Assembly (NCBI GenBank): GCA_018398765.1
Contig: JAHBMJ010000971.1
Coordinates: forward strand, 1 to 37,828
Length of the DNA stretch: 37,828 nucleotides
Reading direction: 5' to 3'
From: Chromera velia
Lineage: Eukaryota > Sar > Chromeraceae
In this document: in pieces, positions 21,893 to 37,828 of the stretch
How the letters are laid out: every line of letters begins with the position of its first letter
Numbering within the stretch: position 1 is the first letter of the stretch
Made by a program: the position numbers and the translations under genes
Notes under the pieces: model-generated
Told to the model about the DNA's origin: nothing
The model's database searches: none
What the model saw: only the letters and a program-made list of their open reading frames with translations

Positions 21893-22803
21893 GAAAGAGT
21901 GAGAGAAAGACAGAAAGAAAGACATAGACAGCGTGACCAAATCAATTACAGACACACAAGAAAGACACCTTGGCCCGCCCCCACCACTCGCACACGCATT
22001 CAGGGTCAAACATTCCTGGTAAGAGAAACAAGCAGACGGACACACCAAGGTTGCTCTTTAAATCCGTCCACCCGTTTGCCCTCCCTGCCCATGCTTCCTT
22101 CCGTCCTTCTTTCGTTAATTCTCTCTCTCTCTCTTGTGTTTTCTTTCTGACCCCACACTCACAGTGACTCCTTCCTTAGCCCTCCCTGCCCCTTCAGACA
22201 AACAGGCAGGCAGGCAGGCAGGCAGATGACCAGCGAGAGAGAGACAGAGAGAGGAGAAGAGTAGACGATGACCAAATGAATTCTTTCAGGGACCTGCCTC
22301 CTCCCTCCCCCCTCCCCCTCTCTCTCTTCTCCCTGTTCAGCCCCCCCAAACCTCTTCCTTCCTCCCTTCAATTGTGCTCTTGCAATCCATCCCATCATTG
22401 TCGCCCCCGCCCCCCACCCCCCCCTTGCCCCTCCCTGCAGGCCTCCTCCTACTCGAACACACACACGACCTGCCGGATGGAAGGAGAGAAAGGGAAAGGG
22501 AAAGCGCCCTGAGTCATGGACAGAAAATGAACCGAGGACGGCCCTAACGCAGCAAGGCAGCGTTGCGGACCAGTACGTCCGGACACGCACACGTTCACGT
22601 TTTTCTCTTCTCAATCGCTGCGTTGCTTTCTTGCAAGGCACACTGTTGATTTATTGAATTGAATTCGAGTGGTCCCGGAAAGCGCAACTTCCTTCAACAA
22701 GGGAACACATACACGTACACGCCCTCAAGCGAAGGGCAGACGGAGGTGGCAGAAGAAAGGAAGCAAGACGATAGAGGCAGAGAGAAACACAGAGAGGGGA
22801 GCA
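21893..22803 (-). repeat. Arm A of a large inverted duplication (partner 37072-37828)
   Basis: Read on the minus strand, this segment aligns almost base for base with 37072 to the window end. Matching landmarks in the same order include GTGTACGTGTATGTGTTCCC, TTCATTTTCTGTCCATGACT, GGCCTGCAGGG/GCCTGCAGGG, GACAATGATGGGATGGATTG and AACCTTGGTGTGTCCGTC. The 37-kb arm lacks an internal segment at 22534-22692. Homology runs to the window end, so the duplicated unit is longer than seen. Confidence 0.95.
22534..22692. mobile_element. 159-bp segment present in one duplication arm only
   Basis: In arm B the sequence passes directly from ATGAACC to TTCAAC. Here the two are separated by about 159 bp beginning GAGGACGGCCC and ending CGCAACTTCC, with a CC at each edge. 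No clear terminal inverted repeat or poly-A end is visible. It could be an insertion here or a deletion in the other arm. It differs from the flanks in having no microsatellite. Confidence 0.7.
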
Positions 22804-23266
22804 TTCTGGTCCTGTCCATTCTCAAAATACTAAAGAAGTCAGAAGAAAGAAAGACAAAATGTACAAACGCAGACAGTGAGGTCCCTCCTTTTCATTTCTT
22901 CATCTGCTCTTCCAGACTTTCTGCCTACCTGTCTTTCAAACTTTCTTTCGTGTTCTCTCTCTGCACTTCTCTGGACCCATTTCTCCTCCCGCATTTCACC
23001 GCAACAAAAACATCTGGCAAAGAAAAGAAAAGAAATGGGAAGAAAGAGCAGTGATTTGTGTGGGTATGTCTGTCTGTCTATCCTGTAACGTCTTCGCAAA
23101 AAGAGAATGATGTTGAGGGAGAATACCTCCCAAAAAACCAGCGAGCCAGCAAGAGACCTGCTGAAGAGAAGAGAAGAGAAGAGGAGCAGAAAAACAAAGA
23201 AAGAAAGACGAGAAAGAAAGAAAGAAAGAAAGAAAGAACGAAAGAAAGGAAGGAAGGAAGGAAGGA

Positions 23267-32699: not shown

Positions 32700-33700
32700 A
32701 CTTGAACGTTTTTCTTTCAAGTGGTTGGTAGTGTTAGGGGCTAGGCAAAGGTGTTTAATCACGGAATATATTTATTCACTAGTTACTCACTTCAAAAGTA
32801 ATATAATTAGGAATATATTCAGGAATATATTCTTAAATAAATTAAGGGGGGTCTGGGGGGCGGAGCCTCCCAGGCAACCTTTTTTTTTTTTTTAAAGCAT
32901 AGTTTGTGACTGGTTTTGAAAAAGATAAACAGGGGCTATCTAGCTGTTAGGCACTGTTAATAGGCAGTAGTGTTACTATACTAGAATCATACTAGACTGT
33001 GTTACAGTATTACTAGAATTTTATAAAATCTTACAATTTATAAACTTATTAAACTAGTAAGTAACATATCATATGAATACGTGGTTGAAAGTTCATACAT
33101 GTTCTCATTGTATGAACATGCACACTACACCTTGTATTTAAAACTCATATATGAAGACCCAATTTTTTATGCAACATGTATAATCGGCTATTCGGCTCCG
33201 AATGCATGCACCGATAGCGTAGGCATTCAGATGGAGGAGCGTTAAGTATGAGGTCGCATGAGAGAGAGAGCTAGTAGTGAGAGCAGTAACCGGGACAGAA
33301 GGAAGAGATGAAAGACGTATAGGCCAGACGCTAGGAACAAACTTTAAGTCAATGCCCCCCCCCCCAAAAAAAAACGATAGCTGCGGCCACTTGTAGAAGC
33401 GGTAGGCGGCCGTAGGCCGCGCCGGCGCCTGCATGGCTGGCCCGGGCTACATGGGCTGGGCCATGCATGCAGTGCACTGGATATGCACAAGCCTCTAGGC
33501 TACTCCCAAAACATTTGTTTTTATAACATAAAAAAAAAACCATACACCATTAGAATGACCAAAAGTATTAAAGACTAGTAAGAATTGGACTTTGGCTAAT
33601 TAATCACTTTATTCAATCACATTCAATCACTTCATTGGATAATTAAATATATTCTAATCACAAGTGACTAAACACCTTTGGGGCTAGGTTAGGGGGGTAC
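32700..33700. mobile_element. AT-rich segment with inverted ends, carrying retroelement tail copy 3
   Basis: Sequence near 32735-32775 (GGCTAGGCAAAGGTGTTTAA.., AATATATTTA) recurs inverted near 33640-33690 (AATATATT.., GTGACTAAACACCTTTGG, GGCTAGG), suggesting terminal or subterminal inverted repeats around an element of about 0.95 kb. Between them are the 3' retroelement tail (33222-33365, ending in a C-run and A9), a GC-rich patch (33400-33470) and AT-rich filler. No transposase frame. The true ends are not defined. Confidence 0.4.
33222..33374 (+). mobile_element. 5'-truncated retroelement tail, copy 3
   Basis: It starts GGCATTCAGATGGAGGAGCG and tracks copy 2 through GCGACCTCATAC (complement) and CTAGGAACAAACTTTAAGTC with only a few differences, ending in a run of C followed by nine A. 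Nothing of the ORF end precedes it, so truncation removed all coding sequence. The 3' homopolymer is consistent with target-primed insertion. Confidence 0.75.
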
Positions 33701-34869
33701 GCCCGGATCGTCTATTCGCCGTCTAACTTCCAAAAATAATAGAGCTGCGCCAAGTTACGCCTCTTGGTATCTCTTTATCTTCGTAGACGTTCTCTTGATC
33801 TACCTCAATCCTACTTGATTAATCAGATTCTATGCGTTTCACGATCCAATCTAGGATCCATTCCTCTAGTTTCAACCGACCGGTCTGTACTGGTCTGCCT
33901 CGCCTTTTATAGTACTTTATAGTACTTTTTAGGACTTCCAAGCGAATTTCTGACTATGTATAAGACGTAACAAGGTGTCACCTCTGGGGCTGGGGACACT
34001 TATAATGATCGAATGAGATCGAATAGGCCACGATAGGCCGTTTGGTACCGTTTGGCGTGATGGTCGTACGGAGTAAGAGTAGAAACTCACCGGAACTCAT
34101 ACTTCTACGGCCGGGGGCCTACAGAGGGGCCTATAGTAGTGTTTACATAGTGTCTGTCAGTCAGTTAGTATAAACTGGTCTTCCGACAAATGATAGTGAA
34201 GTTAAAAAAAGTGAGTGCCTTAAAATGCTTTACGAGCAATCTCAAAGGTGAGTGCCTTAACTTTAATGTTAGAAGATGATTTTCTATTTTTTCCTAATTT
34301 ATTCGAAATTTTCCATCCCCGTGCCCACCTTCAATATGAATTTTTCGAAAAAAATGTTGCACTTTTAGCCGCAAGCCGTGTACTTGAGTAAAGGAGCTGA
34401 AATTTCTTACTGCCACTGAGCCGATCCACTCCGCCAGACTTACTTTCGCGCGCCTTGCGCGCGAACTGACTTGTATTAATAAAAACAAAAACCGAGGCCC
34501 AGGGCTCCGGCATGCATTGCAATGGCATCTCACACGGCTGGTCCCGGACCACTTCGAGCTGAAGTGCCCTTAAATTTTTTTTTGCGCAGAGGAAACTTTT
34601 TTGGTGACTGCACCATACTGCACCTTTTCTTTTGACACCTATCATATAAATCCCGAAGTGTCGTCTTCCCACGAGGCTTCCCAGAAACAAAGGCGCGTAA
34701 CCTTTCTGTTTGGTCTGTATACAAACGTTTTGGTGAGAGGCCTTCTTCACCACTGCTTCCGAGAAAGGCCCGCCTCTGTAAGCATTTCTTTTCACTGTTG
34801 TGCAGTGACTTGGACCTGTGTGTCGCGAGTTCGTTTTCTTTCATTTCGTTGTCGTCCTCTCCTGCGCAG
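33701..34869. other. AT-rich to mixed region upstream of the FHA gene
   Basis: No gene with splice or domain support. GAGTGCCTTAA occurs twice (34211-34221, 34251-34261). A minus-strand frame from about 34795 to 34331 has 154 open codons but begins with GTG and resembles no family. The missing 5' exon or exons of the FHA gene, which must end in phase 2 just upstream of 34870, probably lie here; I could not place them. Confidence 0.4.
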
Positions 34870-37069
34870 TACTGTCCAGGGTGCGTTGGCGCAGTTGACT
34901 CTGGTAGACGAGACGGGAAGGAGGTGGGAGGTGAGGGGGGCTGAGAAATTCAGTCTGGGAAGGAACAACTGCGACTGGACTGCGAATGCGATGTGCATTG
35001 CGAGGCATCACGCGGACGTATTCCGTTGTGATGGAGGCTTCTGTATAGAAGTGCACAGCAAGAATGGTTTGTTGGTCAAGAGACTGAAGGAAGAAGGGAG
35101 CGAGGACAAGGTCGATGTTCGAGTTCCACAAGGACGAAAGGAGACGCTGCGACAAGGAGATATCATTGCCTTCGTGTGAGTCTGTCTGCTTGTGAGTGCT
35201 TCATAGTTTCTCTTCTCTGCAGCTGTCTGTTTGTGTTTTCGTTCACATTCCACTTTACGTTCTCCCTATCTCAAGCAGACAGTCAAAGGAGACAGTCCTT
35301 CTCTTCTGGCATAGTCGTCGCTGTCTGGCTCGCTACTGACTGTCGTCTGCCCTCTTGCCCCGTTCCTCTGCACAGTTGTTCGACTCCTCTGTTGTCCCAG
35401 AGAACGAATGGTCCGCCCATTTCCTGAGGTCCTCCTGAAGTATGAAATGGGATCGGTGGTCTTTTGTTTGCGAAAGTAAGTTAGAGAGCGAATCGTTCTG
35501 CGTCTCCTTCCTTGCCTGCAGAGGCGCTGCGGACAATAGGCTCACCGTCCACCTTTCTTTCCTCCCCTGCAACAGCCACAGCAGCAGAGGCCGAATGCGC
35601 AACCGCAGAGCCCCACTGCAGCACAGCCATCAGCACAAGCACCAGCAATGAGAGAGGAAGGAGGGGCCCCTTTTCCCACCTCTGGGCAAGCGGGAGACGG
35701 GCAAACACGTGCTGCTGGTGCGGGCGGCAGCGAAAGAGGCACAGCTGTGTATCCCAACCCCCCTGCCCCAAGGGCTGCCTCTCTGGAAGCTCAACCAGTG
35801 CGTTCCGCCTTTGTGCCTGGAGGTTTGGGTGTGGGGAGGCACGGAGAGAGACCAGCTCGCCCCTTCACTGCGGGCCCCCAGGCAGAAAGCGAATTTGTGG
35901 GTCATGCAGTCGCACTGCTCTTCTCCGTGAGCAGAGAGTCACCTGCCAGTTGTGCATCTTGGATTTCGCTTTGCCGGGCCACTCTGGATCGTGCAGCCAA
36001 CCTTCAACCGCCCATCCCCTCCGAGTATGTGTCTCTGGCTTTTGCGCGATTTCTCGACAGTTGTGGCAGGTGGTCAGGTCAAACCGCTCCTCTCGTCCCC
36101 CCCCCCGCTGAATTGATGGTGCACTCACCAACAAACAGAAACACGGCAGCAGCATCCACCTCGATGGCGCCCCCCAGACCATCATCCCCCCATGCATCCC
36201 CCCCGCGCCCCGCCCCCCAGATCTCAGCGGGGGGTGTGCAGTCAGCAGGAGTGAGCGGGAGTCCCTCGATGTGGGGTGTGCCCGTGAGTCCGCAGGGGAA
36301 GACGGACAGCGAGAGGGAAAGAGACAGACAGCCTGCAGAAACCTCCGCTGCTCCCTCTGCAGCACCCCACACAGACGCAGTCTCTGCATCAAGTGCTGCT
36401 GTGCCCCATCCCTCTCTCCCCTCTTCAGTTCGGAGGAGCGCCCGGCTGGCACGTGGCCATCCGATCATCTCCTCTGCACCCCCTGCACCCGTCTCTTCTG
36501 CTTCCAAGAAGCGACGGCGTGAGGGGGACGGGGGGAAGGAGACTGAGAAGAGACGGAGGAAGGGGTCGAAATTCTGTGAGCACGGCCGGCAGCGCTCCCT
36601 GTGCAAGGAGTGTGGAGGGAAAGGCATCTGTGAGCACGGCCGGGTGCGGTGTAGGTGCAAGGAGTGTGGAGGGAAGAGCATCTGTGAGCACGGCCAAGAG
36701 CGGTACAAGTGCAAGGAGTGTGGAGGGGGAGGCATCTGTGAGCACGGGCGGAGGCGCTACCTGTGCAAGGAGTGTGGAGGGGGAAGCATCTGTGAGCACG
36801 GCCGGCAGCGCTCCCTGTGCAAGGAGTGTGGAGGGAAAGGCATCTGTGAGCACGGCCGGCAGCGCTCCCTGTGTAAGGAGTGTGGAGGGGGAAGCATCTG
36901 TGAGCACGGCCGGGTGCGGTCTCACTGCAAGGACTGCACAAGCATCTGTGAGCACGGCTGCGAGCGGAGGCGGTGCGCAGATCCTGAGTGCAGGGAACGT
37001 TGCAGGCACAGGGTGCATCCGAGTGTGTGCGCAGAGTGCGTGCATCCGCCTCCTCCAGGACGTCCTTGA
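34870..37069 (+). CDS. FHA domain joined to CEHGRxRxxCKxCGG repeats (5' end missing, frame conflict)
   Basis: Exon 34870-35175 (acceptor TGCGCAG, donor GTGAGT) encodes an FHA domain: KFSLGRNN (the GR turn), ARHHADVF (the SxxH-type phosphothreonine loop), SKNGLLVKRL (the NG turn) and LRQGDIIAFV. Exon 35401-35475 (TCCCAG, GTAAGT) continues in phase. The best next acceptor, CCTGCAG ending at 35521, leads to a stop at 35649-35651, whereas the long final frame (open from 35540 to TGA at 37067-37069) is offset; one extra base in the C4 run at 35564-35567 would join them. The final part is Ser/Pro-rich, has basic clusters (KKRRR, KRRRK), and ends in seven 18-residue repeats CEHGRxRxxCKECGG (from 36575) plus a degenerate eighth. 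C-x-H-x6-C-x2-C suggests zinc binding. FHA domains read phosphothreonine, so a nuclear signalling adaptor is plausible. Confidence 0.8.
36575..36995 (+). repeat. 54-bp in-frame tandem repeat encoding Cys/His motifs
   Basis: Seven 54-bp units plus a shorter eighth encode CEHGRxRxxCKECGG followed by K/G, G/S and I. Units 1, 5 and 6 are almost identical at the DNA level, while 2, 3 and 4 vary mainly at the two x positions (VRCR, QERYK, RRYL). The seventh ends CKDCTSI and the eighth breaks down to CEHGCERRRCADPEC. The tract is therefore both a coding domain and a minisatellite able to gain or lose units without changing frame. Confidence 0.95.
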
Positions 37070-37071
37070 AG

Positions 37072-37828
37072 GCTCCCGTCTCTGTGTCTCTCTCTGCCTC
37101 TATCGTCTTGCTTCCCTTCTTCTGCCTCCTCCGTCTTCCCTTTGCTTGAGTGCGTGTACGTGTATGTGTTCCCTTGTTGAAGGTTCATTTTCTGTCCATG
37201 ACTCAGTGGCGCTTTCCCTTTCCCTTTCTCTCCTTCCCTGGGGCGTGTGTGTTCGAGTAGGAGGGAGCCTGCAGGGAGGGGCAAGGGGGGGGCAGGGGAC
37301 GGGGCGACAATGATGGGATGGATTGTAAGAGCACAATTGCAGGGAGGAAGGAAGAGGTTTGGGGGGGCTGAACAGGGAGAAGAGAGAGAGAGGGAGGGGG
37401 GAGGGAAGAGAGAGAGAGGGAGGGAGGAGGCAGGTCCCTGAAAGAATTCAAATGGTCATCGTCTACTCTTTTCTTCTCCCTCTCTCTCTGTCTCTCTCTC
37501 TCGCTGGTCAACTGCCTGCCTGCCTGCCTGTTTGTCTGAAGGGGCAGGAAAGGTTCAGGAAGGCGTGAGTGTGGGGTCAGAAAGAAAACACAATAGGCAG
37601 AGAGAATTAACGAAAGAAGGACGGAAGGAAGCATGGGCAGGGAGGGCAAACGGGTGGACGGATTTAAAGAGCAACCTTGGTGTGTCCGTCTGCTTGTTTC
37701 TCTTGCCAGGAATGTTTGACCCTGAATGCATGTGCAAGTCGTGGGGGCGGGCCAAGCTGTCTTTCTTGTGTGTCTGTAATTGATTTGGTCACGCTGTCTA
37801 TGTCTTTCTTTCTGTCTTTCTCTCACTC
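37072..37828 (+). repeat. Arm B of the large inverted duplication (partner 21893-22803)
   Basis: Homology to the reverse complement of arm A begins within a few bases of the FHA gene stop codon (TGA 37067-37069), at GCTCCCGTCTCTGTG, and continues to the window end. It contains GGCA/CTGC and CT satellites and a possible splice acceptor CTTGCCAG followed by GAATGTTTGACCC near 37708. No gene is asserted within it. Confidence 0.95.

Follow-up and report, generated by a model that had tools for sequence, protein, structure and literature searches.

A young chimaeric gene in Chromera velia joins an FHA domain to a Cys/His repeat array of a putatively nuclease-associated type

CHFR is a ligase of FHA-RING-PBZ architecture, and the gene described here resembles it in combining an FHA domain with zinc-binding modules (the zinc being predicted in our case), but Pfam searches of the gene outside the FHA domain matched neither a RING nor any other family. 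A nearer plan is that of APLF, whose FHA domain binds phosphorylated XRCC4 and whose C-terminal zinc fingers bind poly(ADP-ribose) (PMC5207133). Akin to our gene, APLF has an N-terminal FHA domain, a long disordered middle and C-terminal zinc fingers in tandem (PMC5207133), and it may attach to chromatin through these fingers. Whereas the APLF fingers are PAR-binding PBZ modules, our gene carries seven to nine units of the C-x-H-x6-C-x2-C type that belong to no Pfam family, and APLF may be regarded as its nearest working analogue by architecture, and not as a relative.

The Cys/His array has described counterparts of its own. Phage HNH and GIY-YIG homing enzymes carry separate DNA-binding modules, zinc fingers included (PMC3943268). 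The likeness of the array to NUMOD modules is one of position, the array being modular and repeated and adjoining HNH-type catalytic domains in viruses; it has no Pfam match, and is thus not a known NUMOD family of that library. EsV-1-7 motifs have the spacing C-x4-C-x16-C-x2-H, and Pfam includes a model for them. The 18-residue unit studied here differs, with its C-x-H-x6-C-x2-C spacing and no Pfam match, although both are repeated motifs common to algae and viruses; the cysteine-rich EsV-1-7 family is reported from brown algae and viruses, with an expansion in brown algae (PMC7457493). Our literature search, with most subscription journals outside it, found no paper on the CEHGR repeat or on an FHA-array fusion.

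The window analysed is a 37,828-nucleotide stretch of Chromera velia DNA (assembly GCA_018398765.1, contig JAHBMJ010000971.1), in which a sequence-only reading had proposed an N-terminal FHA domain, a Ser/Pro-rich basic linker and at least seven 18-residue Cys/His repeats. The profile search of the FHA translation, a check named beforehand, bore out the first of these: PF00498 matched residues 29-102 of the exon 1 plus exon 2 translation with 34.5 bits (cut-off 20.7), a six-frame genome search placed the same profile over its cut-off at window positions 34952-35173, and the landmarks GR, ARHHAD, NG and GDIIAF were all found in the translation. The whole profile match falls within exon 1, and exon 2 probably supplies the last strands of the fold. 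The residues with which FHA domains contact phosphothreonine are GR, S-R-x-H and NG, the Ser being the usual phosphate contact; GR, R-x-H and NG are kept here and Ser is replaced by Ala (ARHH) in both copies of the domain, which makes phosphothreonine binding by this domain less certain. On the evidence of phase, splice signals and the conservation seen in a single paralogue, the three exons (Table 1) would join into a single frame of 620 codons including the stop, with zero internal stops, exon 3 (35576-37069, 497 residues) following in phase 0 and being open to the stop codon. The linker agreed with its earlier description, an Ala/Pro/Ser-rich part being followed by a basic lead with 16 K/R versus 4 D/E in 50 residues. 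Rfam gave zero matches within the window, and sequence searches of the PDB returned nothing meaningful (best E 0.74 and 1.1). AlphaFold2 models made from single sequences, of FHA exon 1 (97 aa, strands only, mean pLDDT 47.6) and of part of the lead plus array (179 aa, mean pLDDT 40.4), were of too low confidence for use.

Table 1. Positions of the segments, exons, introns and repeats in the window
Feature	Position	Strand	Remarks
High-copy interspersed repeat	33500-33680	.	94-98% identical copies at at least 35 other places (40 of 248 candidates scored)
Second interspersed element	34153-34491	.	Copies of 69-88% identity at at least five further places
Segment common to the window and G000:C3452:148332-150017 (FHA exons, introns, linker)	34795-36425	+	
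FHA exon 1	34886-35175	+	Pfam match; first codon TTG, ATG in the paralogue
Intron 1, GTGAGT...CCCAG	35176-35400	+	GT..AG; boundaries also in the L043 (C3452) copy
Exon 2	35401-35476	+	Coding piece; probable end of the FHA fold
Intron 2, GTAAGT...AACAG	35477-35575	+	GT..AG; boundaries also in the C3452 copy
Exon 3 part 1, Ala/Pro/Ser-rich linker common to the paralogue	35576-36424	+	
Exon 3 part 2, basic lead beyond the mosaic junction	36425-36574	+	
Seven strict C-x-H-x6-C-x2-C units, 18-residue repeat of CEHGRxRxxCKxCGG type	36575-36937	+	
Two degenerate Cys/His units, PPPPGRP end, stop	36947-37069	+	
3' flank recurring inverted at 21897-22806 of the window (88-93% identity)	37068-37828	.	

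The repeats, too, were as had been claimed, seven strict and two degenerate. The strict units start at 36575, 36629, 36683, 36737, 36791, 36845 and 36899, with a period of 54 bases, and the degenerate ones, identified by eye on the translation, read C-x-H-x6-C-x3-C at 36947 and C-x-H-x6-C-x2-C at 37001. The pattern C-x-H-x6-C-x2-C matched eight times in the 509-residue open reading frame (ORF), whereas 2000 shuffles of its residues gave a mean of 0.005 and a maximum of 1. Units 1 and 5 are identical over all 54 bases, from which we conclude that the array expanded recently. Pfam matched no family on exon 3 at E values up to 1, hence no PBZ and no nuclease, and neither W-x-D-H-I-like nor N-x-CN-x-K-like motifs were present in the three plus-strand frames from 35501 to the end of the contig. 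The degenerate tail had 18 weak matches in the genome (best E 0.002), several of them within array ORFs. The C-H-C-C ligand positions are present in the units, each of which, by analogy with known zinc-binding families, would hold a metal.

The window gene is a mosaic, with boundaries at approximately 34795, 36425 and 37068, since its identity to a second locus on contig C3452 ends at 34795 and 36425, the array follows, and the 3' flank recurs in inverted orientation. DNA identity between window and C3452 amounts to 94% (1386/1469) and 92% (182/197) and is confined to this interval; a genome search with the shared segment found only this one other copy (92% over all 1631 bases), and the FHA translation likewise had one other close place in the genome, again on C3452 (93% over the exon 1 stretch, 100% over exon 2). 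The paralogous gene carries an ATG-started FHA domain (PF00498, 35.5 bits) and the same linker, and then continues into hundreds of residues of a different, acidic and disordered-looking tail; the array pattern was absent from the 9.9 kb around it, the contig consisting of N from C3452:153288 to 160000. Beyond 36425 the window departs from C3452 with the basic 50-residue lead and then the array. The lead had no source in a DNA search of the genome, and a protein search gave 13 weak matches (E 0.03 to 4), none significant, two of them near arrays: on C206 (E 0.44) upstream of an array and within the same open frame length, and on C341 (E 0.14), where an array lies some 2 kb further downstream. 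A stop-free in-frame join across the 50-codon lead has a chance of about 1 in 15 by arithmetic at 60% G+C, and is weak evidence on its own. The FHA pair is young, because introns and synonymous sites diverge by approximately 5-6%, and the window copy is likely the derived one, given its TTG start and its several segment boundaries. One end of the inverted segmental repeat falls at the stop codon that closes the array ORF, and the copy at 21897-22806 carries extra sequence at 22534-22690.

The array belongs to a family that is very large in this genome: the 150 candidates scored, out of 748, gave at least 254 matches, with several falling in each array, and those listed are spread over at least 60 contigs. 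Among the 40 of 217 candidates scored at the DNA level, array matches longer than 300 bases elsewhere reached at most 81% identity, and one 57-base piece 91%. Around the best matches apart from the window, 29 loci (L010-L038) contained 399 units, overlapping loci being counted twice, of which 308 were distinct in DNA. In these 308 units, where C, H, C and C are fixed by the search pattern itself, G4, R5, R7, K11, G14 and G15 were almost invariant as residues although encoded by varying codons, and positions 9, 6, 16 and 8 were the most variable (entropy 3.28, 2.61, 2.35 and 2.12 bits). We note that variable positions 6, 8, 9 and 16 set between fixed ones are what a modular binding surface might show. 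The host array ORFs differ in what the array is attached to. Eight of the 29 (L015, L018, L022, L024, L027, L031, L036 and L037) matched the starch-binding CBM_20 profile at E values up to 0.1, in an N-terminal stretch that, among ten ORFs scanned singly, exceeded the Pfam cut-off in L018 alone. Four others (L019, L028, L030 and L035) carry a terminal W-x-[VI]-D-H-I tail, which the remaining 25 lack within the stretch read; each of the four matches phrog_28061, a family without assigned function, two of them also match phrog_1035, an endonuclease VII family (L030, 2e-5; L035, 2e-10), and Pfam named no nuclease in any of the four.

Relatives with the same 18-residue CEHGR-type unit were found in viruses. 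IMG/VR was searched with an alignment, which yielded 15 loci, and with a DNA pattern, which yielded 15 stretches, the two sets sharing most of their contigs, whereas scans with single proteins had found one contig, whose first viral match was 51% identical to the window array. The IMG/VR contigs held 15 distinct array ORFs with at least three units (loci L063, L065-L079 and L089). Most of these end in a nuclease, in contrast to the window ORF, which has none and carries the FHA domain instead. Nine of the 15 (L065, L066, L068, L071, L072, L074, L077, L078 and L079) had PHROG matches at E values up to 0.001 to families annotated as endonuclease, HNH endonuclease or endonuclease VII, the array preceding the nuclease part; we count seven as firm, because in L066 and L068 the endonuclease VII match is diffuse and extends across the array. 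The tails of both match phrog_28061, as the host tails do, and that of L066 is 48% identical to the tail of host locus L019 over 61 residues. Four further ORFs (two in L069, and those of L070 and L089) have a Cys/His tail that looks nuclease-like by eye, the array ORF of L073 reads into a transposase, and that of L075 runs up to the end of its locus. In one of the 15, Pfam named a nuclease (Endonuclease_7). Lysozyme-like and tail-like neighbouring ORFs, read by eye, suggest that L063 is a phage. None of the 47 pattern matches in bacterial and archaeal genomes was confirmed as an array relative. A phage collection contained no match for the window array; a viral array-plus-HNH protein matched 31 of its records, all below 60% identity, and in all 15 of the 31 that were listed the HNH part was covered, four of these covering some of the array too. 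Fusion to HNH or endonuclease VII-type nucleases recurs both in viruses and among the host array ORFs, and the CEHGR-type array is accordingly best read as a module that accompanies nucleases and binds nucleic acid; it may be an undescribed one.

In light of these relationships we lean, with modest confidence, towards a young mosaic gene in which a segment carrying FHA domain and linker came to lie in frame upstream of an array, and whose product, if expressed, would act as an adaptor between the partner of the FHA domain and nucleic acid. The FHA domain would bind a phosphothreonine partner, as members of its family do, the flexible linker would tether it to the array, and basic lead and array would grip nucleic acid with one metal ion per C-H-C-C unit; the fusion protein could then, speculatively, recruit its phosphorylated partner to DNA or RNA. 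We infer phosphothreonine-dependent recruitment to nucleic acid as its function, in an equally speculative sense. For the fusion to be translated, initiation would have to occur in an exon further upstream or at a codon other than ATG. The reading frame of the FHA domain extends open from 34574 and contains no ATG ahead of it, and when the upstream DNA was scanned for an ATG with a donor and an acceptor, 11 combinations turned up, none of which is outstanding (a raw count, uncorrected for chance).

A less probable but serious alternative is that a non-functional FHA segment landed beside an array gene, that any expression of the array exon begins at a start within the linker, and that the FHA part goes untranslated. 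In-frame ATGs do exist within the linker, the two copies differ in their start (TTG at window position 34886 versus ATG in C3452), the upstream flank consists of repeats and unique DNA with no outstanding first exon, and array ORFs often have their own basic lead at the start (10 of the 29 host ones contain a KRNR, KRDR or RNRH string); the linker, moreover, has a dN/dS of 0.75, indistinguishable from neutral (Fisher P 0.37). Against this alternative stand approximately 1.2 kb of common coding sequence with zero stops and zero frameshifts, in which the length differences (ten codons and one codon, 33 bases altogether by DNA coordinates) are multiples of three and keep the frame. The FHA exons also differ at fewer bases than the introns and 5' flank (9/366 versus 25/415, P 0.02), and with intron divergence as the yardstick the linker has 27 nonsynonymous differences versus 37.5 expected (P 0.045). 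For the FHA domain the dN/dS is 0.22 (Fisher P 0.03), with four nonsynonymous differences, one of them the ATG/TTG start codon, versus 17.2 expected if neutral (P 1.6e-4) and 8.6 expected with one copy alone constrained (P 0.07). These substitution counts show constraint on the window/C3452 pair taken jointly; the four FHA changes are also consistent with a constraint acting solely on the paralogue, and the evidence against a dead duplicate may reflect the paralogue's constraint.

The sequence-only reading had gone further and proposed that the combination, if real, would couple phospho-reading to a multivalent, probably zinc-bound platform. That such a fusion is an established, selected FHA-zinc platform, conserved beyond this locus and reaching an APLF-like design independently, appears unlikely to us. 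The architecture does resemble that of APLF (PMC5207133), but the genome search placed FHA domains at 13 sites, window included (E up to 0.001, a search that may miss intron-split FHA domains), and an array lies near just one of them; in the 6.4 to 9.9 kb around each of the 12 others, where parts of L043, L044, L060 and L061 are N, no strict array unit was present, and two loose pattern matches in L059 lie on the opposite strand and are unlike the CEHGR repeat. The closest relative also lacks an array in the stretch read, and the divergence of the pair is low. The earlier suggestion that the combination is unusual thus stands for this genome, and the FHA match, the linker and the Cys/His array are genuine; an established coupling is not supported, as FHA domain and linker are the young twin of a gene that is array-less in the stretch read, TTG stands where that gene has ATG, and the array comes from a very large family whose viral relatives often bear nucleases. 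It seems very improbable, finally, that assembly joined two unrelated loci at 36425. The contig, one of 4040, ends inside one copy of the inverted repeat, and three segment boundaries fall within 2.3 kb, as such an error might produce, but the left side differs from C3452 by approximately 6-8%, so that no collapse of that locus is involved, and the DNA just right of the junction is unique in the genome; misjoins usually require a shared repeat.

The window gene is therefore best called, on the basis of the sequence comparisons, a young chimaera that joins two kinds of parts and whose activity is putative. Domain shuffling may be on view here at an early stage, a young duplication having set a phospho-reader beside a repeat module. 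The array merits more attention than the fusion itself, and the window case hints at its function because many of the viral relatives carry nucleases. A broader conjecture, to which we give little credence, is that CEHGR arrays are modular nucleic-acid readers in which one unit meets one short target stretch through positions 6 and 9, that they were brought by virus-type mobile nucleases, amplified in the host and re-used on starch-binding-like, nuclease and FHA heads, and that the FHA version would be a phospho-controlled, sequence-targeted adaptor. If arrays do read nucleic acid unit by unit, the many examples in one genome would allow a direct test of the code.

Two features near the FHA paralogue on C3452 may be recorded as well. 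Its acidic tail (L043, 6636-9482) contains the strings VIVIDSEDEE and VDGDVVVVGG, which we take to resemble SUMO-interaction motifs, and on the minus strand at L043 3129-5018 lies an ORF that, read by eye, resembles a Cys-loop ligand-gated channel.
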